NCBI RefSeq assembly: GCF_018122655.1
Contig: NZ_JAGRQC010000001.1
Coordinates: 434,001 to 498,000, forward strand
Direction of reading: 5' to 3'
DNA: 64,000 nt
From: Stakelama marina
Lineage (GTDB): Bacteria; Pseudomonadota; Alphaproteobacteria; Sphingomonadales; Sphingomonadaceae
Part shown: positions 559 to 33,801 of the stretch, in pieces
Layout of the letters: each line of letters begins with the position of its first letter
Position numbering within the stretch: the stretch's first letter is position 1
Translations under genes and position numbers: made by a program
The notes under the pieces: model-generated
What the model was told of the DNA's origin: nothing
What the model saw: the letters and a program-made list of their open reading frames with translations, nothing else
Databases searched by the model: none

Positions 559-881
559 AATATGACGGCCCTCTCGAGCTGCTGAAGCAGAATGCCACCG
601 ATGTCGCGAAGCATATGCGCGTGCTCGCGCACCGCGACCGGCTGATAATGCTGTGCCGCATGTCGGATGGAGAGGTGTCGGTCGGCGAACTGGTCGAGCT
701 GACCGGGTTGTCGCAATCGGCGGTGTCGCAACATCTGGCGATGCTGCGCGAGGCCGGGGCCGTGGAATCGCGTGCACAGGCGCAGACCCGGCTGTATCAT
801 GTGGCGGACAAGCAGATGGAAAAGATCATCGGCGCGCTGTGCATCGCCTTCGCACCGACCAATGGAGACGAGGCGGCATGA
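555..881 (+). CDS. ArsR/SmtB-family repressor, BigR/YgaV-like
   Basis: A 108-residue winged-helix regulator with the ArsR helix-turn-helix around residues 42-72 (VGELVELTGLSQSAVSQHL). It lacks the ELCVCDL metal site of classical ArsR proteins. It has two cysteines, C34 in alpha-2 and C96 in the C-terminal helix. From memory, the sulfur-sensing BigR/SqrR/YgaV group uses two cysteines in these helices, but about 66 residues apart; here they are 62 apart, so the second sits one helical turn earlier. The gene overlaps the RND gene upstream and the thioredoxin gene downstream by four bases each. Autoregulation of an operon answering persulfide, thiol or oxidant stress is my inference. Confidence 0.85.
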   Translation: MKYDGPLELLKQNATDVAKHMRVLAHRDRLIMLCRMSDGEVSVGELVELTGLSQSAVSQHLAMLREAGAVESRAQAQTRLYHVADKQMEKIIGALCIAFAPTNGDEAA

Positions 882-1312
882 ACGCTCTGACGATCATGTG
901 CGGCAATTGCGGGACGCTGAACCGCGTGCCCGAGGCGCGGCTGGGCGATGGCCCCAATTGCGGGAAATGCGGCCAGCCGCTCGTTACCGGCAAGCCGCTT
1001 GCGGTGAACATGGCGCGCTTCGACAGGCTTGTCGGCAAGGGTAGCCAGCCGGTGCTGGCCGATTTCTGGGCGAGCTGGTGCGGCCCGTGCCGGATGATGG
1101 AACCGGCCTTTGCCGCGGCGGCGGGCGACCTCGATCCGCAGGTCCGGCTGGTAAAGGTCGATACGGAGGCCGAACAGCAGCTTGCGGCGCGGTTCGGCAT
1201 ACGGTCGATCCCGACGATGATCCTGTTCAGCGACGGGCGCGAGATCGCGCGTCAGGCAGGCGCGATGGACAAGAACGGCATCGTCCGCTGGGTGCGATCG
1301 GCGCTGGCCTAG
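878..1312 (+). CDS. trxC: thioredoxin 2 (zinc-ribbon thioredoxin)
   Basis: A 144-residue cytoplasmic disulfide reductase. The N-terminal zinc ribbon has cysteines at 8, 11, 28 and 31 (CGNC and CGKC). The thioredoxin fold follows, with the active site WCGPC at residues 67-71 and the cis-proline segment RSIPTMILF. This layout and length are those of TrxC. The start overlaps the ArsR stop (ATGA), so expression is linked to the regulator and the RND pump. TrxC-type proteins reduce protein disulfides and are often induced under oxidative stress. The gene ends ten bases before the convergent exchanger gene. Confidence 0.92.
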   Translation: MNALTIMCGNCGTLNRVPEARLGDGPNCGKCGQPLVTGKPLAVNMARFDRLVGKGSQPVLADFWASWCGPCRMMEPAFAAAAGDLDPQVRLVKVDTEAEQQLAARFGIRSIPTMILFSDGREIARQAGAMDKNGIVRWVRSALA

Positions 1313-1322
1313 GCGCGCCGCG

Positions 1323-2315
1323 TCACTCGCCGATCAGGAACATCGCATAGGCGCTGCCCAGATAGACGGTCAGCAATGCGATGCCGATCCAGCCGGTCAC
1401 GCCGAAAAAGCGCACTTTCGGCCGGTCGATGATCGCGACGATCACGATTCCCGACATGACCACCGCGGCAAAGGCCGATGCGGCATGGACCGGCGATGCG
1501 TCGGCAAGCAGGCTGCCCTTGCGATAGGCGAGGTCGTCGATCGCCAGCACGAGCATGTTGAACAGGTTGCTACCGAGCAGGCCGGCGATCGCCATATCTG
1601 CCGATCCAAGGCGAAGCGCGGCGATCACGACGACGAGTTCCGGCAGCGATGTCGCCGCCGCGATCAGCATCGTCCCGACAAAGCTTGTCCGCCAGCCCAT
1701 CAGCTCGGCGATCCCTTGACCGATAAACGGAAGCGCGCTGCCCGCCAGCACGATCGGCAGCGCGGCGAGAATGTAGCTCTGCACCGGCCCGCGAAGCGCG
1801 GAGCGGCGGTTTTCCTGCGGTGCAGTGCGCGGCGCAAGCTTGCGATCGTGGAGGAAGGTCGCGCGTATCGACACGAAATAGAGGAGGATCAGCAGCGGCG
1901 AATAAATGCTCATATGGAGCAGGCGCAGGTCCAGCGCGTCGCGACCCACCACCAGCACGATCCCGACCAGCCCGATCAGCATGACGCCGAGCGCCGCGGT
2001 CAGGATATGCCCCTGATCGGCGCGGTCGAACAGCGGGTCGGAACGCGACAGGAAATCAAGCAGCGCGAGCAGGACCAGGTTGAAGATGCAGCTTCCCAGC
2101 GCATCGCCCACCGCGATGTTGGGCGCATCCGCAAGCGTGACCGCGCTGACGCCGGTAACCAGCTCCGGCAGCGAGGTGGCGGTTGCCAGAAGGATGATCC
2201 CGATCCACGACCGCGACAGTGCAAGCGCTTCGGCGATCCTGTCGGATGCACGCGCGAGCACCGGTCCGGCGACCGCTATGGCGACCGTGCAGAGGGCGAA
2301 GAACAGCCATACCAT
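1323..2315 (-). CDS. calcium/sodium:cation antiporter (CaCA family, YrbG-like)
   Basis: A 330-residue inner-membrane exchanger with about ten hydrophobic segments in two halves. The two alpha-repeats are visible: ATATSLPELVTG in the first half and AAATSLPELVVV followed by GLLGSNLFNM in the second; their acidic and small residues form the ion path in this family. I chose the ATG at 2315, placing the first membrane helix at the N-terminus. The in-frame TTG at 2357 would lie inside a putative operator (2350-2365). The gene is divergent from a P2-type ATPase resembling calcium pumps, so the pair may handle Ca2+ or another divalent cation; the ion is inferred. Confidence 0.88.
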   Translation of the reverse strand: MVWLFFALCTVAIAVAGPVLARASDRIAEALALSRSWIGIILLATATSLPELVTGVSAVTLADAPNIAVGDALGSCIFNLVLLALLDFLSRSDPLFDRADQGHILTAALGVMLIGLVGIVLVVGRDALDLRLLHMSIYSPLLILLYFVSIRATFLHDRKLAPRTAPQENRRSALRGPVQSYILAALPIVLAGSALPFIGQGIAELMGWRTSFVGTMLIAAATSLPELVVVIAALRLGSADMAIAGLLGSNLFNMLVLAIDDLAYRKGSLLADASPVHAASAFAAVVMSGIVIVAIIDRPKVRFFGVTGWIGIALLTVYLGSAYAMFLIGE

Positions 2316-2349
2316 ATGCCATTCATGTCGAAGGCGCGGGCTCGCTTCG

Positions 2350-2365
2350 CTCCGCAATTATACGC
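2350..2365 (-). promoter_or_regulatory. island motif copy upstream of the CaCA antiporter gene
   Basis: Reading towards the antiporter gene the 16-mer is GCGTATAATTGCGGAG, ending 34 bases before the ATG at 2315. It resembles the best copy (CCGTAGCATTACCGAT at 18732-18747), and more closely the copy at 18755-18770. It was identified by eye. Confidence 0.5.
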
Positions 2366-2391
2366 AGATATGTGAACGGGGGCATGGACTT

Positions 2392-2407
2392 GCGTAGCAT
2401 TACTGAT
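2392..2407 (+). promoter_or_regulatory. island motif copy upstream of the P-type ATPase gene
   Basis: GCGTAGCATTACTGAT, 65 bases before the ATPase start. It matches 14 of 16 bases of the copy upstream of the distant ADH gene (18732-18747), and the next bases (CCC) also agree. This is one of the strongest pairs and shows that the motif recurs. Confidence 0.6.
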
Positions 2408-2472
2408 CCCGCCCGCAGCCGGTCGTTTCTAGCGTCTGTACCGGCCGTTGCGCCAAAGCCGACCGGAAGCCG

Positions 2473-5148
2473 ATGACAGATGCCTCGAAAGTGATGCGCC
2501 AAGGCGTTCAGGATCAGGAGCCCCGCGATGCCCGGGCGACATGGCATATGCTGGACGCGGACCAGTGTGTTTGCCGTCTCGGCTCCGCGGAATCGGGCCT
2601 GTCCGAGCCGGATGCCGATTCGCGACTGGAACGATATGGGGCGAACGCGCTCCCCCATGCCCGCCCGCCGGGGGCGGTGAAACTGTTTCTCAGCCAGTTC
2701 CGCAGTCCGCTGATCTATCTGCTCCTCGGCGCTGCGATCATTTCGGCGATCGTCGGCCATGGATCGGATGCGGCGTTCATCCTCGGCGTGCTTGTGCTCA
2801 ACGCGGTGATCGGCGCGGTTCAGGAGGGGCGCGCCGGCGCGAGTGCGGAGGCGCTGCGCAGCATGATCCGCCAACATGCGCGGGTCCGCCGCGACGGCAA
2901 GCTCGCCGAACGCGACGCCGCGATCCTGGTGCCGGGGGACATCGTCATCGTCGAAAGCGGCGACCGCGTGCCGGGCGATATCCGCCTGTTGCGGGCGATC
3001 AATCTTCACGCCGATGAATCGTTGCTCACTGGCGAGGCGATGCCGGTCGTAAAGGATGCGGCGATCACGCTCGACGCCGATACGCGCGCGGCGGATCGGC
3101 GCAACATGCTGCACGCGGGAACGACGATCACGTCGGGCAGGGCGACCGGCATTGTCGTTGCGACCGGGTCGGCGACCGAATTGGGCCGGATCGACCTGTC
3201 GCTGCGCGAAGTCGCGTCCGAACCCCTGCCGCTGATGCGCGATCTGGCGCGTCTTTCGCGGCAGGTCGCGGTCGGGACGGTGGTGCTGCTCGCGCTGCTG
3301 GCGGTCGCGCTGGCGGCAAAGGGCAGCGGCATCGAGGAAATCCTGATGCTGGCGATCGCGCTGGCAGTTGCGACCATTCCCGAGGGCTTGCCGATTGCGG
3401 TGACCATCGCGCTCGCCGCGGCGACACGGCGCATGGCGCGGCGCAACGTCATCGTCAGGACGCTTCCCGCCGTCGAGGGGCTGGGCGCGTGCACGCTGAT
3501 TGCCACCGACAAGACGGGCACGCTGACGCAGAACCGGCTGACCGTGGAGCTGTTGCTGACAGATGAGGGGCGAACGGTTGCCGAGGCCGATTGGGATCGT
3601 CCCGAACATGCGGCGACCGTAACCGCGCTGGCGCACGCCGCCCGCCAGTGCAACGAAGCGGGTGCTACCGAAGACGGCGACTTTATCGGCGACAGCGTCG
3701 ACGTCGCGCTGCTCCGCTTTGCAGCGATGTTCGACCTGCCGGGCGAAGACGGCGAAGAACGGATCGAACTCTTCGCCTATGAGCCGGTCAACCGCTTTGC
3801 GAGCGTCGCGGTGCGGCGCGGCGATGGGGTGGAGGTCATTGCCAAGGGCGCGGTCGAGACGATTGCCGCGATGTGCGACCAGGTCGCGCCCGATCTGCTG
3901 GCCGCGACCGAAGAAGTGGCGCGGCAGGGCTACCGCGTGCTTGCCTTTGCGCATGGCTGTGCCGCCGATGCCGGCGCGGCAAATCTTGCGCATCCTTCGG
4001 GGCTTCGGATGATCGGCTGCACCGCATTGCTCGATCCGCTGCGGCCCGAGGCGATGGAAGCAATCGCGCATTGCCGCTCGGCAGGGATCGAGGTGCGGAT
4101 GCTGACCGGCGACCATCCGGCCACCGCGCACACGATCGGGGTTCGGCTTGGTCTTGCCGATGGCGGTGACGGCGTCGTGACCGGTGCCGAACTCGACGCG
4201 CTTTCGAAGGATGAACGGGCCTTTGCCGATATGGTCGTCCGGTCGCGCGTGTTCGCGCGGATCGAGCCTGCGCAAAAGCTTCAGATCGTCAGGATCTTGC
4301 AGCAAAGCGGACACACGGTTGCCGTCACGGGCGACGGCGTGAACGATGCACCCGCGCTTCAGGCTGCCGATATCGGTGTGGCGATGGGTAGCGGCGGTAC
4401 CGACGTCGCGCGCGAAGCTGCCGACCTGATCCTGACCGACGACAATTTCGCATCGATCGTTTCGGGGATCGAGGAGGGGCGCGCTGCCTATGCCAATCTT
4501 CGCCGTATCGCGATCTTTCTGATCGGCACCGGCATGGCGGAAATCAGCATGTTCGTGGGCGCGCTCGCCATGGGGCTGCCCGCACCGCTGACACCGGTTC
4601 AGATATTGTGGGCCAACCTCGTCACCGAAACCGCGCAGAATGTCGGCCTCGCGCTTGCCGGTGCGGAGGGTGACGAACTCGAACGGCCGCCACGGTCGCG
4701 CAAGTCATCGATGATCGACGGCAACGCGCTCGCCCAGATGCTCGTCCCGGCGGCGGCGATGATGCTCGTCACCGTCGCGCTGTTCGGATGGTGGTTCGAA
4801 GGCAGCGGCAGCCTCTATGATTCGCGCTCGCTCGCGTTGCTGACGGTCGTCCTGTTCCAGAACGTGTTCGTGCTCGCGGTCAGCAGCGAGCGCCGGTCGA
4901 TCCTGCGTTTCAGCCCGAGGCGCAACCGGTGGCTGGTCGCCGGTGTCGGTGTCGCGCTGGGATTGCACCTGCTCGCCATGTCGTTTCCCGCGACGCGCGG
5001 CATTCTGGGGCTGGCGATGCCGAACATGGTCGAAATCGCCGCGTGCCTGGGCGGCGCGGTGATCGTTCTGGTCGCAGTGGAAATTACCAAGGCGGTGCTG
5101 CGCCAGAGACGATCGACCGGACCTTCGGCTTCAACCGCTGCGGAGTAG
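2473..5148 (+). CDS. P2-type cation-transporting ATPase
   Basis: An 891-residue inner-membrane ion pump. An N-terminal cation-ATPase segment (about 25-95) precedes the actuator domain with LTGE at 185-188. The PEGLP motif of P2 ATPases is at 303-307 in helix 4. The phosphorylation site is DKTGT with D346, and TGDGVNDAP lies near residue 618. The remaining helices occupy about 680-875. All core residues are present, so it should be active. PEGLP is typical of Ca2+-type (P2A/B) pumps, but the ion cannot be fixed from sequence alone. A universal stress protein follows after four bases, probably in one operon. A regulatory motif lies 65 bases upstream. Confidence 0.93.
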   Translation: MTDASKVMRQGVQDQEPRDARATWHMLDADQCVCRLGSAESGLSEPDADSRLERYGANALPHARPPGAVKLFLSQFRSPLIYLLLGAAIISAIVGHGSDAAFILGVLVLNAVIGAVQEGRAGASAEALRSMIRQHARVRRDGKLAERDAAILVPGDIVIVESGDRVPGDIRLLRAINLHADESLLTGEAMPVVKDAAITLDADTRAADRRNMLHAGTTITSGRATGIVVATGSATELGRIDLSLREVASEPLPLMRDLARLSRQVAVGTVVLLALLAVALAAKGSGIEEILMLAIALAVATIPEGLPIAVTIALAAATRRMARRNVIVRTLPAVEGLGACTLIATDKTGTLTQNRLTVELLLTDEGRTVAEADWDRPEHAATVTALAHAARQCNEAGATEDGDFIGDSVDVALLRFAAMFDLPGEDGEERIELFAYEPVNRFASVAVRRGDGVEVIAKGAVETIAAMCDQVAPDLLAATEEVARQGYRVLAFAHGCAADAGAANLAHPSGLRMIGCTALLDPLRPEAMEAIAHCRSAGIEVRMLTGDHPATAHTIGVRLGLADGGDGVVTGAELDALSKDERAFADMVVRSRVFARIEPAQKLQIVRILQQSGHTVAVTGDGVNDAPALQAADIGVAMGSGGTDVAREAADLILTDDNFASIVSGIEEGRAAYANLRRIAIFLIGTGMAEISMFVGALAMGLPAPLTPVQILWANLVTETAQNVGLALAGAEGDELERPPRSRKSSMIDGNALAQMLVPAAAMMLVTVALFGWWFEGSGSLYDSRSLALLTVVLFQNVFVLAVSSERRSILRFSPRRNRWLVAGVGVALGLHLLAMSFPATRGILGLAMPNMVEIAACLGGAVIVLVAVEITKAVLRQRRSTGPSASTAAE

Positions 5149-5152
5149 AACG

Positions 5153-5983
5153 ATGATCCAAGACCTTCTCTTGCACCTGAGCAGCTATCCCGACCCGACG
5201 CCCGAAAGCGCCATCGATGCGGCCCGGCGATTGGCCGAACGGTTCGACGCATGTTTGTCGGTCGCGGTTTCGCAGACCGATCTGACGCGCCTGACGCGCT
5301 ATGTCGCCAGCGGCCTGGTGACCGGCAAGGAGCTGGCGGCCGAGGAAAACCGGCGGAGCCGCGCGAACACGCTGCTGCTGCTCGAACAGGTCGAGGACCG
5401 GCTCGCGAACGTCCAGCGGGGCGGCCAGTTTTTGTTCGAGACCTTGCCGATCGCACCATCGCGCGAGCTGGTGACGCATGCCCGCGCCTATGATCTGACG
5501 ATCGTGCCCGTCGACGCCCATGGCGAGGGCGACGATGTGGCACAGGCGCTGCTCTTCGGTTCAGGCCGTCCGATATTGCTCCTGCCGCAAACGCGAACCG
5601 GCGATGTTGGCCTGAAGGTTCAGATCGGCTGGGACGGAAGTGCCGCGGCCGCTCGCGCGTTGGGCGACGCGCTCCCGCTGCTTGCGCGTGCGGAAACGGT
5701 AATGCTGGTGGCGGTCATTGGCGACAAGGCGCTCGATGAAGGTACCGGGCTGGAAACGGTCGCCGCGCATCTCGAACGCCACGGCATCGCCGCGGATATC
5801 GAACATGTCGAGGCGGAAGGAAGGAACGCGGGCGCCGCGCTTCTCGCCCATGCCACCGACTGGGGAAGCGACCTGCTGGTCATGGGCGGATACGGCCATT
5901 CACGCGCGCGCGAGTTCATCCTTGGCGGTGCGACGCGCCGCGTGTTGCAGGACGCGCGGATGCCGGTGTTCCTGTCGCACTGA
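5153..5983 (+). CDS. universal stress protein, UspA family
   Basis: A 276-residue cytoplasmic protein long enough for two Usp-like halves. The C-terminal half carries the ATP-binding signature G-2X-G-9X-G(A/T) in GGYGHSRAREFILGGAT, near the end. The N-terminal half is more divergent and lacks a clear nucleotide motif. UspA proteins accumulate in growth arrest, hypoxia and other stresses and may bind ATP to modulate partners. The start lies four bases after the P-type ATPase stop, so it is co-transcribed with the pump. Confidence 0.88.
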   Translation: MIQDLLLHLSSYPDPTPESAIDAARRLAERFDACLSVAVSQTDLTRLTRYVASGLVTGKELAAEENRRSRANTLLLLEQVEDRLANVQRGGQFLFETLPIAPSRELVTHARAYDLTIVPVDAHGEGDDVAQALLFGSGRPILLLPQTRTGDVGLKVQIGWDGSAAAARALGDALPLLARAETVMLVAVIGDKALDEGTGLETVAAHLERHGIAADIEHVEAEGRNAGAALLAHATDWGSDLLVMGGYGHSRAREFILGGATRRVLQDARMPVFLSH

Positions 5984-5998: not shown

Positions 5999-6823
5999 CT
6001 AGGGAAATGTTCGGACCATCAGCACGTCGCAATCGACGAAATTGAGCACCGACGATGCCGTGCTGCCGATCGTCGCCTGCGCGAACCAGCCGCGCCCGTG
6101 CGTGCCCATGACGAGCAGGTCGAAAGCGTCGTCGCGCATGACGCGGCCGATACAGGTCTGGGTCTCGCCGATCTCCAGCCGCGCCGCCGGGGGCGGGCCG
6201 TCATGGGCACTGGTATCGACCTTCGCCATGAACGCATCCATTTCCGCTGCTGCCTCGTGCGCGATTTCCTGCGCCGTTTCGCTTTCGTCGAGCCACGCGC
6301 CATAGGCGTTATGCGAACAGTGCAGCACCTCGATATGCGCCGCCGGAAACAGCGACAGCGCGGCCTGGACCGCCGCGAGCGAATGTTTCGAGAAATCGGT
6401 GGCGACGAGTATGCGCCGATACGGCCTTAGCGCGCGCTGCTTGACCACCAGAACGGGAACGTCGGAACGCCGCACGAGATGATCGACGGCGGTGCCCAGC
6501 ACATGGTCCTCCACATCGTTGAACCGTGCGACCCCGGTGACGATGACGCGCGGATCGATCTGCGCGGCGGCGGAGAGGATTTCGGGTTCGACCTTGCCGG
6601 TTCTGACGATCACATCCCAGTCGCTGCTTCGATGCCCGATAATCGATTCGAGCGCCCCCTTGGCCTTGCGAAGCAACTCGTCGGCGTCCGCATCGCTGCG
6701 AACGACATGGAGGAGGACCACCGACGAGCCTAGCTGGTCGGCGATCAGAAAGGCGCGATCGGTCGCGCGGTCGCAGCGTGCGCTGAGATCGGTCGCAAGC
6801 AGGACTTTATCGGTCGGCATCAT
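5999..6823 (-). CDS. universal stress protein, tandem UspA domains
   Basis: A 274-residue protein with two UspA domains. The first ends in LGTAVDHLVRRSDVPVLVV and the second in MGTHGRGWFAQATIGSTASSV... with the G-2X-G-9X-G(S/T) ATP-binding loop. The reading frame is open further upstream, but a GAGGGGG ribosome-binding sequence sits just before ATGATG at 6823/6820, so I start at 6823. The gene lies 22 bases downstream of the M50-CBS protease gene on the same strand and probably shares its promoter. It converges with the other Usp gene at 5153. Confidence 0.88.
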   Translation of the reverse strand: MMPTDKVLLATDLSARCDRATDRAFLIADQLGSSVVLLHVVRSDADADELLRKAKGALESIIGHRSSDWDVIVRTGKVEPEILSAAAQIDPRVIVTGVARFNDVEDHVLGTAVDHLVRRSDVPVLVVKQRALRPYRRILVATDFSKHSLAAVQAALSLFPAAHIEVLHCSHNAYGAWLDESETAQEIAHEAAAEMDAFMAKVDTSAHDGPPPAARLEIGETQTCIGRVMRDDAFDLLVMGTHGRGWFAQATIGSTASSVLNFVDCDVLMVRTFP

Positions 6824-6845
6824 TTCCCCCTCGTCTTGCATCGGG

Positions 6846-7982
6846 TCAGCCCTTGTGGACCGCATGGTCGCGACGCCCGAATATGGTCGGGCGCGGGCTG
6901 GGGCGGTCGATTGCCGCCCGGACCATCCGGAATTCGGCAAGGTTGTTCATCGTGACGATGCCGATCGTCTTTCCCTGCGCATCGACGACGAAAACCGGAT
7001 CGGCGCCCGTCTCGAGCGCGGCGAGCGCATCCTGTGCGGACGCCTCGGTCCTCAGGCTGACGGCGTTGCGATCGAGGATCTGCGCGATGGGCGCATCGAG
7101 ACCAATCTGCTGCGTCGCAAGCATGATATCGCTGCGCGAAATCGTGCTGACGGGCGCGCCGCGCGGATCGACGACGGGGAAGCGGTCCTGTTCGCCGCGG
7201 ATCAGTGCTTCGATAGCGGTCGAAAGCGGATCGACGGTTGTCAGCATGTGGACATCGTCCACCATCACATCGCCAATGCGGTACCCCGACAGGGCCTTGC
7301 GCAGGTCGACGCTCGATGCTTCGGCCGAGGCGGCGAGAAAGACGAACCCGCCGATCAGCATCAGGATCGGATGGAATATGGCGACGCCATAAGCTCCGAT
7401 GGCGAGGCCGAGCAGCCTGCCGGTCCAGCTCGCTGCGCGCGTCGCCCGGTCACGGTCGAGCAGCAGCGACAGGCCGGCGCGGAAGATGCGCCCGCCGTCC
7501 ATCGGAAAGGCGGGCAGCAGATTGAACAGGAAAAGCGACAGATTGGCGAGCGCGAGCAGCCCGGCAAAGTCACGCAGGCCGGACGGCATCGCCAGCCGCG
7601 CCGGATCGGCGATGCCGCCCGCTGCGATCATCAGTACGATCGCCAGGCCCAGGCTTACCGCCGGGCCGGCCGATGCGATGACGAGTTCCTGGCGCGGATC
7701 TTCGAAATTGCTCTTGATCCGGGCCATGCCGCCGATCGGGTAGAGCGTGATGTCGGGCGTCGGAATGCCATAGCGCCTCGCCGCGAGGACATGGCCGAAT
7801 TCGTGGAGCACGACACATGCAAACAGCGCCGTGATGAAGGCGATGCTGAACAGCGCAGCGCGCGGCCCGCCGGCGGTCAGCGCCGATAGCCCGATCCAGG
7901 CGAGCAGCAGCAGAAAGGTCAGGTGGATGCGCACCACCGTGCCGCCGAAAGAGCCGATCGAGATCGCCCAGCGTTTTTGCAT
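6846..7982 (-). CDS. site-2 protease family (M50) membrane metalloprotease with tandem CBS domains
   Basis: A 378-residue polytopic membrane protein. The zinc motif HEFGH is at residues 60-64 and the second metal motif, in NLLPAFPMDGGR, near residue 170. About six hydrophobic segments form the protease core. Two CBS domains follow (about 240-360; one contains DRFPVVDPRGAP), which bind adenine nucleotides in related proteins. This is the architecture of Rip3-like or sporulation factor IVB-type proteases regulated by ligand. The substrate is unknown; anti-sigma factors are typical targets of the family. A motif copy lies 55 bases upstream. Confidence 0.92.
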   Translation of the reverse strand: MQKRWAISIGSFGGTVVRIHLTFLLLLAWIGLSALTAGGPRAALFSIAFITALFACVVLHEFGHVLAARRYGIPTPDITLYPIGGMARIKSNFEDPRQELVIASAGPAVSLGLAIVLMIAAGGIADPARLAMPSGLRDFAGLLALANLSLFLFNLLPAFPMDGGRIFRAGLSLLLDRDRATRAASWTGRLLGLAIGAYGVAIFHPILMLIGGFVFLAASAEASSVDLRKALSGYRIGDVMVDDVHMLTTVDPLSTAIEALIRGEQDRFPVVDPRGAPVSTISRSDIMLATQQIGLDAPIAQILDRNAVSLRTEASAQDALAALETGADPVFVVDAQGKTIGIVTMNNLAEFRMVRAAIDRPSPRPTIFGRRDHAVHKG

Positions 7983-29152: not shown

Positions 29153-29821
29153 TCAGGCGGCGACCGTTTCCAGCAGGCCTTCGAACAGCCGCCGGCCCTC
29201 GTCACCGCCATGCGCGGCTTCGATCCGGCGTTCGGGATGCGGCATCATGCCGAGGACATTGCCGGCGCCGTTCAGGATGCCCGCAATGTTGCGCGCCGAC
29301 CCGTTGATGTTCTCGGCATAGCGAAATGCCACGCGGCCTTCGCCTTCCAGCCGGTCGAGCGTATCGTCGTCGGCGAAGTAATTGCCGTCGTGGTGCGCCA
29401 CCGGAATGCGGATCGTTTCACCGGCCTGATAGCGATCGGTAAAGATCGACCGGTTGTTTTCGACCGTCAGCGCGGCGTCGCGGCAGACGAAGTTCAGCCC
29501 GCTGTTGCGCATCAGCGCCCCGGGCAACAGCCCCGATTCGGTCAGCACCTGAAAGCCGTTGCAGATGCCGATTACCGGCGTGCCGCGCCCGGCCGCCCCG
29601 ACCACCGCCTGCATGATCGGCGAGCGAGCCGAAATCGCGCCGCAGCGCAGATAATCGCCATAGGAAAAGCCACCCGGCAACGCGATCAGCCCGATCCCGT
29701 CGGGCAGTTCGCTTTCGCCGTGCCAGACCATGGCCGGCGCGGTGCCCGATACGTCGCGCAGCGCCACCGCGACGTCGCGGTCGCAGTTCGAACCGGGAAA
29801 TACGATGACGGCGGTCTTCAT
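29153..29821 (-). CDS. purQ: phosphoribosylformylglycinamidine synthase, glutaminase subunit PurQ
   Basis: A 222-residue class I glutamine amidotransferase of purine synthesis, supplying ammonia to PurL. It starts [16 protein letters not shown]. The nucleophile cysteine lies in GICNGFQVL (about residue 87) and the His/Glu pair in GMMPHPERR near the C-terminus. The start overlaps the purS stop (ATGA). Together with PurS and PurL (not in the window) it forms the multi-subunit FGAM synthase. Confidence 0.95.
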
Positions 29822-30048
29822 TGGCGTTCGACCCGGTAGTTTTCGATCACCGTATTGGCGAGCAGCTTGCGGCACATCTCGTCGATCTGCTCGTCGCTCG
29901 TGTCGTCGGCGACCTCGAGTTCGAAGATCTTGCCGGCGCGAACGTCCGCCACACCCTCGAAGCCGAGCGAACCGAGCGCGTGCTGGATCGCCTTGCCCTG
30001 AGGATCGAGGACGCCGTTTTTCAGGGTAACGACGACGCGGAGCTTCAT
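29818..30048 (-). CDS. purS: phosphoribosylformylglycinamidine synthase subunit PurS
   Basis: A 76-residue protein with the PurS pattern: [20 protein letters not shown], then [21 protein letters not shown]. The start at 30048 follows GGGAGGTCCGCA, so the longer open frame is not used. It is a small structural subunit bridging PurL and PurQ. purQ follows with a four-base overlap. In related bacteria purC usually directly precedes purS; here the Slam/TbpB-like pair and a small opposite-strand gene lie between. Confidence 0.94.
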
Positions 30049-30196: not shown

Positions 30197-30346
30197 ATGG
30201 CGTTTCTCGCAATGGTGATGTTCGTGTCGCTGTTCGCTTTCGGCGGCGACTTTTTCGGCTGGAGCGATCCGCACGGCCGGATTCAGCTCGCGCTCGTCGC
30301 GACCTTCGTCTTCGGCATCATCTGCGGTTTCAAGGCCAAGGGCTGA
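30197..30346 (+). CDS. small two-span membrane protein (49 aa)
   Basis: A short gene with GGCAGGTGATTT before the ATG. The product, beginning MAFLAMVMFVSLFAFGGDFF, has hydrophobic segments at about 2-19 and 30-44 separated by a polar loop (GWSDPHGRIQ) and a basic C-terminus (FKAKG). Composition and ribosome-binding site support coding; no function is recognised. It ends four bases before the stop of the convergent Slam gene. Confidence 0.55.
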   Translation: MAFLAMVMFVSLFAFGGDFFGWSDPHGRIQLALVATFVFGIICGFKAKG

Positions 30347-30350
30347 GCCC

Positions 30351-31706
30351 TCAGAAATACCGCGCCAGCGTGAAGCGGAAGCGCGTCCGGTCGGTCGCAT
30401 AATATCGTACCGAGCTGTCGGTCGTGGCGTAGGACACGCTCATCGAAGGCGAAAAGCCAAGCACCCGGATCTTGCGATAGCCCAGGCTTGCTCGTGCGCC
30501 GTAGCGCCAGTCCTTGCGCGGCTCGACCGAGAATAGCGGCATCGGTGCGTCATAGGTCGCGCGCGACACCGTTCCGCTGACCGCGAAATTGATGCCCAGC
30601 GGCAGTTCGCCGCCGATCCCCAGAGTGCCGCCATATTCCTTGCTCGAATAAGCATCGGCTGCCAGCCAGTCGCGCCGCGCGAATGCGCCGAGCGAGGCGA
30701 CCAGCGTCTTCGACACCGCGCGTTCGTAGCTGAGATAGGCCGATCCCTGCCAACCGTCATATGCCGGGTCGAACTTCGCATCGGTCTTGCGCAGGTCGAT
30801 CTGCGCACCGATCTGGTCGCTGTCGCTGAGCGTCAGTTGCGCGCCCAGCTTCGTGCCCACCTGGCGTGTGACGACATCGCCGCCGAACCAGCGTTGCGCG
30901 CCGACGGCCTGTCCCGACACGCTCAGCCGGTCGGTTATGCGGTAGGAGGGGCCGGCGGCGAACTGGACGAGATAGTCGTCATAATCGCTTCCGGCATAGT
31001 TGGTGCCGATCGAATCGAGGTCGAACAGCATTGCCATGCGGTCGGCGACCGGCAGGCGAAGCCCTGCGGAGATCGACCCGGTTTCGCCGGTTCCCGACCG
31101 CGCCTTCGCCTTTTCGTCGAGCGTCAGCGGAATGGGGATCGATCCGAAGAGCACGGTTACGGTGCTGGCATCGGTCGCATTGTTGATATTGGTATCGGGC
31201 GCGATGCCAAAATCGACGTCGAGGCTCCACGCCCTGCGCGAGCGGATGATATTGCGCACGGTGCGGATGGTGCGGGCGACGTCGGGCGGCAGGTCGTCAT
31301 CCTGCTGCGCGATGCGGAACTGGCGGTCGGCGCTTTGCGGCTTGCCCATCGCCAGCATCGTCTTGGCAAGTTCCAGCCGGACGCGCGTCTGGCTGGGGTC
31401 GTTCGCCAGGATTGCCTTATATTCATCGGCTGCGGTCTGGTTGTCGCCGGTGGCGGCGGCGACCATGCCGGTCAGGTAACGCGTCTCGAACCGCAGCTCG
31501 GGTATCTTGCTCAGCGCCGCGAGCAGGACTTTCGCCTCGTCATAGCGCTTGTCGCGGATCAGCACCTGCGTTTCGCCGAGCAGTTGCTCGGGCGTCAGCC
31601 GCGCCTTGCAGGTCGCCGCCGCGCAGCGATCGAGCAGCGTCTGGGCGTGCGTCGGCACCGCTGCCAGCGTCGCCGCCAGCAGCGCTATCGCCGCCGTGAT
31701 ACGCAT
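30351..31706 (-). CDS. surface lipoprotein assembly modifier (Slam)-like outer-membrane protein
   Basis: A 451-residue protein with a signal peptide ending around VPTHAQ. A TPR-like helical domain covers about residues 35-135 (ELRFETRYLTGMVAAATGDNQTAADEY and following). A C-terminal beta-barrel (about 155-451) ends in a terminal phenylalanine (RFTLARYF). This is the two-domain plan of Slam (DUF560) proteins, which move lipoproteins such as TbpB to the cell surface. Its ATG overlaps the stop of the TbpB-like gene (TAATG), so translator and substrate are coupled. Slams are best known from Neisseria and Moraxella-type bacteria; a sphingomonad copy is less studied. Confidence 0.85.
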   Translation of the reverse strand: MRITAAIALLAATLAAVPTHAQTLLDRCAAATCKARLTPEQLLGETQVLIRDKRYDEAKVLLAALSKIPELRFETRYLTGMVAAATGDNQTAADEYKAILANDPSQTRVRLELAKTMLAMGKPQSADRQFRIAQQDDDLPPDVARTIRTVRNIIRSRRAWSLDVDFGIAPDTNINNATDASTVTVLFGSIPIPLTLDEKAKARSGTGETGSISAGLRLPVADRMAMLFDLDSIGTNYAGSDYDDYLVQFAAGPSYRITDRLSVSGQAVGAQRWFGGDVVTRQVGTKLGAQLTLSDSDQIGAQIDLRKTDAKFDPAYDGWQGSAYLSYERAVSKTLVASLGAFARRDWLAADAYSSKEYGGTLGIGGELPLGINFAVSGTVSRATYDAPMPLFSVEPRKDWRYGARASLGYRKIRVLGFSPSMSVSYATTDSSVRYYATDRTRFRFTLARYF

Positions 31707-32935
31707 TATTTCTTGCCCGTGAACGCGCCGAGAATGTCGATCCGCTCGTCCGGCGTGCCGCCGACGATGCGGAACCCGCCGCCGATTTCCTCGCCATTGG
31801 GGCCGAAGAACGCGCCGTCGATGCTCGACCCGGCGATGTTGACGGTGAAGTCGCTCATACCCGGCCGCTCGAACTTCGCGGAGGTGAAGCTTCCGGTGAA
31901 GCCGCCCTTGTTGACCAGATCGATGGTCGCCTGAGCAGAGGCGCTGAAGGTCGAACCGGCGGGCATCGAACTCGCGCCGCTCGTATAGGCGTCGATCGAC
32001 GGGGCAAGGACGGTCCCGGTGAAGTCGCTCTTGACCGACAGTGCGCCGAAATCGACGGTCGTCGTCTGCGATCCGTCGATCCACTGGAAATAGGTCGGCG
32101 CACCGGCATTGGTGTCGAGATCGGGGTTGAACACCATCGTCGCGATCATGTCGCCGGTAAAGGTGCCCGAACCCGTTTTGGGGACATTCGCGTTGGTCGT
32201 GCGCTCGCCAAAGACGAACGCGCCGCGATCGAGATGATATTGCTCGCGCAGATAGGACGGGCTGGCGGGATCGTCCTGGATCTCGCTCGCCGATACCTGA
32301 TTGTGCACATAGCCGGCATAGGTGACGTACTGCGTCGTCGTGCCCGGCTTCTGATAGAAGAAGCTGTAGGTGTCGCTGGTATAGTCGCGCGCGCCGACGA
32401 CATAGTCGGATTGCGCCGCGCCGGCGGTGTAATAGGGGCTGCCGGTGGGAAGCTGGCTGCCGCTGCCCGATCCGAACTGAAGATACTGGATGTTCTTTGC
32501 CGGATCGAGATTGGGGACGCCCGCCTGCGGTTCCTTCGCGCCGCCGAAATCGGTGCGATGCGCCGGGTCCTGAAAGCGGCCGTCGGTCGATACCTGTGCG
32601 TTGGGGCGGCTGATCGTCAGTTCGAAAATGGCATCGCGCGGGTCGTAGGCGACCGAAATGCCGCTGTCGCGCGCGGTATTGGCGTCGCCGGCATAAAGCT
32701 GCCCGCGCTGCACCGTCTTGTTGGAATCGGTGTAATATTCATAGTGATGAACACCGCCGATCGCCTCATAGGTCTTGGCTTCGGTGGGATTGACGAAGCT
32801 GTGCGTATCGCCGGAGCCCGATCCGCCTGCCGTGGGCGGCGCGCTGCCGCCAACCGTCTGGGGACCGGTACCGCCGCCGCAAGCTGCGAGTGCCGTCGCA
32901 CAACCGAGAACAATCAGATTCCGCTTCGCAACCAC
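31706..32935 (-). CDS. TbpB-like surface lipoprotein, likely Slam client
   Basis: A 409-residue lipoprotein. It starts with GTG at 32935 after AAGGGGG and has the lipobox LAAC with lipidated C19, followed by GGG, a feature of surface-exposed lipoproteins. The C-terminal part (about 290-405) looks like the eight-stranded TbpB-type barrel and ends with GAFFGPNGEEIGGGFRIVG, matching the FxGPxxxExGGxF signature of TbpB, HpuA and hemophilin-type proteins. The ligand is unknown: related proteins bind transferrin, haemoglobin, haem or factor H. It is coupled to the Slam gene downstream, so surface display is likely. No TonB-dependent receptor is adjacent. Confidence 0.82.
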   Translation of the reverse strand: MVAKRNLIVLGCATALAACGGGTGPQTVGGSAPPTAGGSGSGDTHSFVNPTEAKTYEAIGGVHHYEYYTDSNKTVQRGQLYAGDANTARDSGISVAYDPRDAIFELTISRPNAQVSTDGRFQDPAHRTDFGGAKEPQAGVPNLDPAKNIQYLQFGSGSGSQLPTGSPYYTAGAAQSDYVVGARDYTSDTYSFFYQKPGTTTQYVTYAGYVHNQVSASEIQDDPASPSYLREQYHLDRGAFVFGERTTNANVPKTGSGTFTGDMIATMVFNPDLDTNAGAPTYFQWIDGSQTTTVDFGALSVKSDFTGTVLAPSIDAYTSGASSMPAGSTFSASAQATIDLVNKGGFTGSFTSAKFERPGMSDFTVNIAGSSIDGAFFGPNGEEIGGGFRIVGGTPDERIDILGAFTGKK

Positions 32936-33021
32936 GGTGCTACCCCCTTACAAATCTGCAAGGGTGATAGCGTCCGGATGGTTAAGAAGTGATTTAGGCC
33001 CGCCCGTCGACGGCGGCGCGA

Positions 33022-33801
33022 TTATTTGCCGCGGCGCTTGCGGTGGCTGTCGAGATCGAGAACCGCCGATTCGCTGTCTTCGGGCAACAGGCCCAGCCTG
33101 CGTGCGACCTCCTGATAGGCCTCTACCTCTCCGCCGAGATCACGCCGGAACCGATCCTTGTCGAGCTTTTCGCCCGAGGCCATGTCCCACAGCCGGCAGC
33201 CATCGGGGCTGATCTCGTCGGCCAGGATGATGCGCGCGTAATCATTGTCCCAGATGCGCCCGAACTCGAGCTTGAAGTCGACGAGGCGGATGCCGATCCC
33301 GGCGAACAGTCCCGACAGGAAGTCGTTCACGCGGATCGCCATGTCGGCCATGTCGTGAAGCTCGTCCTGGCTCGCCCAGCCAAAGGCAAGGACATGTTCG
33401 TCGGTGATCATCGGATCGCCGAGCGCGTCGTCCTTGTAATAATATTCGATGATCGTGCGCGGCAGCGGCTGGCCTTCCTCGACGCCGAGACGCTTCGACA
33501 GCGAACCCGCGACGACGTTGCGCACCACGACCTCGATGGGCACGATCTCGACCTGACGAACGAGCTGTTCGCGCATGTTGAGGCGGCGGATGAAGTGGGT
33601 CGGCACGCCGATTCCGGCGAGCAGCGTGAAGATATGCTCCGAAATCCGGTTGTTGAGCACGCCCTTGCCGCTGATCGTGCCTTTCTTCTGCGCGTTGAAC
33701 GCGGTCGCATCGTCCTTGAAATACTGGATCAGCGTGCCCGGTTCGGGGCCTTCGTACAGAATCTTGGCCTTGCCCTCGTAAATCTGGCGGCGGCGAGCCA
33801 T
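33022..33801 (-). CDS. purC: phosphoribosylaminoimidazole-succinocarboxamide synthase
   Basis: A 259-residue SAICAR synthetase that joins CAIR and aspartate with ATP in purine synthesis. Typical segments are [28 protein letters not shown] at the N-terminus, [31 protein letters not shown] near residue 70, and [10 protein letters not shown] and [15 protein letters not shown] near 165-190. It is separated from purS by the lipoprotein/Slam pair. A hairpin with a T-rich tract precedes it. Confidence 0.97.

Follow-up and report, generated by a model that had tools for sequence, protein, structure and literature searches.

The closest described relatives of the locus reported here are type XI secretion systems (T11SS), in which an outer-membrane Slam protein exports a lipidated or soluble cargo. 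The seven T11SS proteins with experimental verification all come from the animal-associated cluster 1 (PMC12282271), and the T11SS proteins of environmental Sphingomonadaceae form subcluster 1C, which had no previously characterized representative (PMC8406197). One T11SS lipoprotein, NilC, is tied to colonization and surface glycans rather than to iron (PMC9100927). Here we describe a Slam-lipoprotein gene pair in a 64,000-nucleotide stretch of the Stakelama marina genome (the window). The pair is probably a CtrA-regulated T11SS whose surface lipoprotein, judged from sequence and predicted structure, is likelier to serve adhesion or surface life than iron piracy. Its conserved CtrA-type promoter offers a testable handle on timing and directs attention away from iron piracy, the default interpretation, and the pair bears on what T11SS do in free-living bacteria.

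Both open reading frames lie where a preliminary description of this DNA had placed them, with the one-base overlap that it reported: base 31706 is common to the lipoprotein stop codon (TAA) and the Slam start codon (ATG). The genome yields a single PF04575 match and a single PF01298 match, so Slam and cargo are each other's only visible partner. The pair and its presumed promoter comprise:

31706..32935, minus strand: cargo, a predicted surface lipoprotein of 409 amino acids (open reading frame, Pfam, structure model)
30351..31706, minus strand: Slam, a T11SS outer-membrane protein of 451 amino acids (open reading frame, Pfam, structure model)
32978..32996, minus strand: CtrA-type box TAAA-N7-TTAACCAT, upstream of the cargo start (pattern and family conservation)
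32966..32971, minus strand: −10-like element GCTATC, with the TA placed 16 bases downstream of the first T in TTAACC

Relatives were gathered by a cargo-alignment scan of named genomes, in which the best 80 of 89 confirmed candidates represent 75 distinct loci. A complete cargo reading frame could not be set for L131, L186, and L191, and upstream analyses cover the remaining 72 named loci plus the window. The cargo alignment (A2) holds 65 of the 72 named cargos and the Slam alignment (A3) 65 of 71 Slams. Both exclude near duplicates and L192, whose cargo is broken; L141 is missing from A2 as well, and L097 and L120 from alignment A1.

The cargo opens with a signal peptide (residues 1–18) and a lipobox, ...ALAAC19GGG, from whose sequence pattern lipidation at Cys19 is predicted. 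Cys19 is invariant among the 66 sequences of A2, and the lipobox cysteine is followed by two Gly or Ser residues in 72/72 named relatives, a count biased by the partial use of the lipobox pattern in picking start codons. A disordered tether (∼20–43) leads to a handle or pedestal (∼54–243) and then to a C-terminal TbpB_B_D barrel (251–409), which Pfam recognizes as PF01298 at 30.6 bits against a cut-off of 26 and which is present in 66/66 aligned cargos. The NCBIfam equivalog model NF041636 (slam_lipo) scores 26.9 bits, under its cut-off of 80; we take that model to be narrower than the Slam-dependent lipoprotein kind. An AlphaFold2 model built on the 66-sequence alignment of the window and related loci has a mean predicted local distance difference test (pLDDT) score of 90.0 and a predicted TM-score (pTM) of 0.86; the signal peptide and the tether come out as disordered. 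VIA-align matches the model best to the meningococcal TbpB C-lobe (5kkx_B; Z 17.5, root-mean-square deviation 3.3 Å over 212 residues), followed by NHBA (5o1r_B; Z 16.0, 105 residues), fHbp (7nru; 14.5), and HpuA (5ec6; 14.4), with the hemophores 8gm3_A and 6om5 at Z 14.1 and 13.9. Foldseek returned the same families at low TM-scores by query (0.24–0.32 for the top ten) and with large deviations over long alignments, so the statement on fold rests on VIA-align. Pfam, AlphaFold2, and VIA-align agree on an eight-stranded C-terminal barrel. As this is the only TbpB_B_D match in the 409 residues, the cargo lacks the two lobes of TbpB. Trp285, Tyr81, Tyr97, and a QDPxxR motif (122–127) are invariant or nearly so, Tyr81 being kept in 99% and Tyr97 in 97% of 72 sequences.

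The Slam protein comprises a signal peptide, recognized by eye, an N-terminal arm of tetratricopeptide repeat (TPR) helices (39–156), and a barrel. PF04575 (SlipAM) matches residues 160–451 at 83.9 bits against a cut-off of 22 and is found in 66/66 aligned Slams at E 0.001. TPR_19 is over its cut-off (30.3 bits, cut-off 25); TPR_Slam falls under its own (32.1 bits, cut-off 35.2) yet is found in 64/66 relatives at E 0.001. The model (mean pLDDT 88.9, pTM 0.69) contains 14 long strands from residue 160 to 450, a count that excludes the short strands 182–187 and 190–195, and the top solved folds by Foldseek include OmpG and BcsC, which likewise joins TPRs to a barrel. The preliminary description had called the two proteins TbpB-like and Slam-like and had proposed comparison with TbpB, HpuA, and hemophilin; that comparison gives the cargo a TbpB-like predicted fold, and the barrel protein carries the Slam domain. 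Two Slam cysteines, C28 and C33 (C-x4-C), which lie after the signal peptide and before the TPR arm, are kept in at least 90% of 66 sequences; a disulfide or a cargo contact is possible.

The gap upstream of the cargo contains a conserved element. The hexamer TTAACC occurs on the sense strand in 70/73 upstream regions, 45–70 bases before the start codon, compared with a mean of 3.2 and a largest value of 7 in 100 shuffles. It is accompanied by a left half (TTWA or TAAA seven bases earlier) in 51/73 regions, against a shuffle mean of 0.05. Dereplication to 42 regions leaves the hexamer in 39 and the full box in 26. A TTAA-like tetramer with at most one mismatch stands exactly seven bases before TTAACC in 37 of these 39 regions (exact in 2); at the two adjacent offsets such tetramers occur in 12 and 18 of 39, and at other offsets in 0–3. 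The family consensus is TTWA-N7-TTAACC, with one mismatch in the left half of most boxes (35/39 dereplicated) and a −10-like element downstream: TA.C or TA..C begins 15 or 16 bases after the start of TTAACC in 29/39 dereplicated regions. The CtrA box has the consensus TTAA-N7-TTAAC (PMC7200025), TTAACCAT is a variant of it, and activating sites lie near −35 (PMC6180460). The element upstream of the cargo resembles both the consensus and the TTAACCAT variant and is a candidate site for CtrA.

Among the regions compared, the box is specific to this position. On the sense strand of the Slam-purS gap TTAACC occurs in 1/51 and the full box in 0/51; the corresponding values are 1/52 and 0/52 for the 150 bases before purC, 0/74 and 0/74 for the last 150 bases of the cargo match, and 1/19 and 0/19 for the gap between purC and purS in genomes lacking the pair at that position (19 of 20 measurable). 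Within 3.5 kb upstream of other Slam genes the full box was found in 0/22 cases, and TTAACC alone in 4/22, always more than 1.4 kb away. These 22 comprise 20 Slams read as non-orthologous, L097 (28% cargo match), and L070 (orthologous, without cargo); two of the 24 loci were left out, having no Slam coordinates. The box is kept also where the pair lies away from purC.

The S. marina genome encodes ctrA (NF045991, 422.9 bits, cut-off 350), and the family-derived pattern finds nine sites in it, against one for a reversed control. They precede the cargo, ctrA itself, a CheA-type kinase, a TadE/G-like pilus gene, a MASE1-PAS-GGDEF protein, a PilZ protein with a divergent UbiA gene, an L,D-transpeptidase (L223), a small open reading frame (L226), and an unnamed protein facing a glycosyltransferase (L231). 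In Sphingomonas melonis, a CtrA phosphorelay reportedly controls motility and biofilm formation.

Several observations weigh against CtrA control or fail to bear on it. The L223, L226, and L231 sites are not obvious CtrA targets. The pattern was taken from the family alignment, so that the cargo site is there by construction and the other eight form the test. The left half in the window, TAAA, is one mismatch from TTAA, and a strict genome search with TTAA-N7-TTAAC gave five sites (two in the reversed control), the cargo site not among them. TTAACC is absent from 3/73 upstream regions (L158, L171, and L193). Read-through from purC is possible, as purC and the cargo lie on one strand with gaps of 75–303 bases in 49/56 loci and, in the window, the stretch separating them gave no terminator-like site on that strand. 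Flagellin genes occur in 97/101 genus genomes and, being near-universal, say nothing of the pair's role. A sigma-70 consensus scan of 29–34 kb gave no promoter-like site, a result uninformative for CtrA promoters.

The data are consistent with a type XI (Slam) surface-display system that has its own CtrA-type promoter. The cargo would be synthesized with the signal peptide of a lipoprotein, receive its lipid at Cys19, and be carried to the outer membrane. There Slam, whose periplasmic TPR arm and 14-strand barrel fit the family plan, would flip it to the outer face; Slam is thought to recognize the C-terminal barrel of its cargo. Transcription would begin in the purC-cargo gap, where the TTAA-N7-TTAACC CtrA box would overlap the −35 region. 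With the box in that place, the pair would switch on with the CtrA program (motility, chemotaxis, pili, cyclic di-GMP, and biofilm behavior), iron would not be its main control, and it would not be expressed as a component of purine synthesis. At the surface the cargo would most likely act in adhesion, in binding matrix or glycans, or in modifying the envelope, tied to the CtrA phase of life.

The pair lies between purC and purS, with purQ downstream of purS, as the preliminary description had it. The neighboring genes are:

33022..33801, minus strand: purC, recurrent upstream neighbor (family profile, synteny)
30197..30346, plus strand: gene for a small hydrophobic protein of 49 amino acids, between Slam and purS (relatives in named loci)
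29818..30048, minus strand: purS, recurrent downstream neighbor (family profile, synteny)
29153..29818, minus strand: purQ (amidotransferase), next downstream (family profile)

Slam adjoins the cargo in 73/75 loci, the exceptions being L131, where the contig ends, and L192, where the cargo is broken. With start codons chosen by script, the two genes overlap start-to-stop in 12/71 measured pairs and are 0–30 bases apart in 48/71. Flanks of 3 kb or more upstream and 4 kb or more downstream were available for 61 loci, and 51 of these have purC and/or purS within the fetched sequence: both in 42, purC only in 4, and purS only in 5, with neither in 10. Where purC is a neighbor it lies within 303 bases of the cargo in 49/56 cases (the others at 691–5921), and purS lies within 395 bases in 50/55 (the others at 565–2113). 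The purC-purS position is thus the commonest arrangement among relatives that carry the pair. The opposite-strand gene that parts the pair from purS in the window has relatives in 8/75 named loci and in 4/20 purC regions of genomes without the pair there. Rfam at gathering scores gave nothing at the pair locus and one tRNA elsewhere in the window.

Locus titles name Sphingomonas, Novosphingobium, Sphingorhabdus, Parasphingorhabdus, Allosphingosinicella, Hephaestia, Chakrabartia, and Parasphingopyxis, all of which we take to be Sphingomonadales, together with unnamed Sphingomonadales or Sphingomonadaceae and one exception, Microvirga sp. SRT01 (L194). This last locus carries a sphingomonad pair, and its title looks misapplied. 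PF04575 is found in 61/199 family genomes (59 over the cut-off) and in 32/101 genus genomes (31 over the cut-off). Sixteen of these 32 hold the pair at purC and/or purS (12 at both, 2 at purC only, 2 at purS only), G288 has Slam without the cargo between purC and purS, G297 has the pair elsewhere, and 14 have matches solely away from purC and purS; loci were fetched for 12 of these 14, and the cargo was seen in none of them. The pair was found in 17/101 genus genomes and purC in 99/101.

Some loci are incomplete or divergent. In G288 (locus L070) a Slam gene at 6033–7364 lies between purC and purS without a cargo, and the gap of ∼105 bases between Slam and purC lacks TTAACC, as if cargo and promoter had been lost together. 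Apparently broken cargo genes stand beside Slam in L192 (6007–6642) and L186 (around 2113–2772). In L120, a lipoprotein of 882 amino acids (2458–5106) with a weak C-terminal cargo match stands beside another Slam. The locus also contains a TonB receptor plug, and the lipoprotein is possibly the published multi-domain Sphingomonas type.

The preliminary description had treated the pair as inserted and its placement as unusual. The neighborhood survey speaks against an anomaly, as does the GC content, which is even across the pair (0.61–0.67, with no step between 29 and 34 kb of the window). We therefore rejected recent foreign insertion as the main account: GC is even, the position is common to several genera, and several clades recur in both the pur tree and the pair tree. 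These trees contain 46 rows holding all five genes and were compared by eye; L132, L136, L177, L182/L184, and L188/L189 shift between them. The pur genes flank the pair, and the pur tree is not an independent marker for it. A mobile element was likewise rejected, a tblastn search of plasmid and phage collections with the cargo having found nothing. Pairwise identities correlate at 0.85 for cargo and Slam, 0.78 for Slam and purC, and 0.66 for cargo and purC (1378 non-independent pairs). Even so, the pair must often be lost, or be exchanged by way of its flanks: G294, whose purC is the best match in the genus sample (95%), gave no PF04575 match, and just 81 bases part its purC from its purS. The pair recurs at the purC-purS position, where it is probably an old resident with many absences, and is not a local oddity.

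The role of the pair also admits other explanations. A lipoprotein of this fold could bind heme, a siderophore, or a metal-carrying protein and pass its load to an unlinked TonB-dependent receptor, as nutrient-piracy co-receptors such as TbpB, HpuA, and the hemophilins do. Its fold neighbors include TbpB, HpuA (5ec6), and the hemophores 8gm3 and 6om5, several characterized T11SS cargos act in metal or heme uptake (PMC12282271, PMC8406197), and the genome has 27 matches to the receptor plug PF07715. The nearest of these on the contig, however, is ∼126 kb from the pair, bearing out the earlier statement that no TonB-dependent receptor adjoins it. This lack is not special to S. marina: in 72/75 loci the sequence fetched around the pair, which reached 6 kb at most and was shorter in some cases, gave no plug match. 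The profile was built from 21/27 genome matches, leaving out the weakest and five with a stop in the frame used. The three loci with a plug (L174, L192, and L193) compare with TonB receptors in 120/185 Slam clusters of an earlier survey (PMC5449769). Moreover, the cargo is single-lobed, its promoter element is CtrA-type, and no invariant His, Met, or extra Cys was found in 72 sequences, the closest being H126 (86%), M267 (85%), and M263 (83%). The heme or siderophore ligand entertained in the preliminary description has no positive evidence and is made less likely by the CtrA-type promoter and the lack of invariant His, Met, or Cys, and we consider a piracy co-receptor unlikely. Together with the rarity of the plug, the same two features favor, over metal piracy, a putative surface role linked to a motile or attached way of life. 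Functional coupling to purine synthesis, with expression within the pur operon, would account for the pur neighbors in 51/61 loci and for the missing terminator-like site after purC, and purine metabolism is among the pathways that co-occur with cluster 1 T11SS (PMC12282271). Against it, the pair has its own conserved promoter-like element, kept also away from purC; 10/61 loci have neither pur gene nearby; the pair is far rarer than purC in the genus; and an opposite-strand gene separates Slam from purS in the window. Such coupling is very improbable. The neighborhood may instead be an inherited position, and some of the reported association of T11SS with purine genes may come from synteny of this kind rather than from shared function.

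A further explanation is that the pair mainly varies the surface, for instance against phages or protists, with cargo alleles recombining by way of the pur genes conserved on either side. In Sphingomonas gei and S. naasensis (L182 and L184), the first 30 cargo residues are 87–90% identical to those of the in-clade L128, whereas the rest is 14–60% identical, except for C-terminal blocks at 60–79%. DNA identity to L128 is ∼79–96% in purC, mostly 40–65% in the cargo body, ∼60–78% in Slam, and ∼88–94% in purS. The approximately unbiased (AU) test rejects placement of the two cargo bodies in the window clade (p = 4e-6), and that of Slam more weakly (p = 0.02). The drop in identity after the cargo leader suggests replacement of an allele between conserved flanks. 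However, the L182/L184 group was chosen after the tree had been seen, long branches are involved, this is the only lineage studied in detail, and several clades are common to the pur and pair trees. That variation itself is the main function we regard as doubtful. Returning to the CtrA-regulated surface pair, a fuller form of it can be put forward tentatively: a T11SS wired to the CtrA program of free-living sphingomonads would display, in one phase of life, a fast-changing TbpB-fold adhesin, matrix, or recognition lipoprotein that takes no part in metal piracy and whose alleles are exchanged through the purC-purS flanks.

The pair belongs to an already reported kind of system, and the link to CtrA is its new element; a full-text search of one collection of open-access papers gave no paper connecting CtrA with T11SS among the matches listed. 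By taxonomy, the window proteins would fall in subcluster 1C, with which they share a PF04575 outer-membrane protein and the bacterial family. In cluster 1, linkage to TbpB_B_D proteins is common, as here; the available text describes no locus, promoter, or cargo for 1C (PMC8406197). T11SS-1B cargo is almost all soluble (PMC8406197), in contrast to the cargo described here, a predicted lipoprotein rarely near a receptor gene. The hemophilin-like cargos HrpC and HphA form a single handle-barrel unit, as does the window cargo. Hemophilins are set apart as soluble products of signal peptidase I, whereas the window cargo has a lipobox with an invariant cysteine. In having a lipobox it is like "haemophilin-like group 2," most of whose members are lipoproteins (PMC12282271). 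The "Sphingomonas surface proteins" are T11SS cargo that take their name from the genus and combine several TbpB_B_D domains with Pro-Thr repeats (PMC12282271); the window cargo lacks repeats of this type and contains a single TbpB_B_D domain. NilC of the Xenorhabdus NilB/NilC pair is, by its description, similar in being a lipoprotein with a C-terminal eight-stranded barrel that is reported to be surface exposed, and differs in its other N-terminal domain and in coming from a nematode symbiont (PMC9100927). The Neisseria TbpB/LbpB-Slam1 systems share with the pair a lipidated cargo of handle and eight-stranded barrel and a PF04575 exporter; in contrast to them, the window cargo has one lobe rather than two, no linked TbpA-type receptor, and a CtrA-type promoter.

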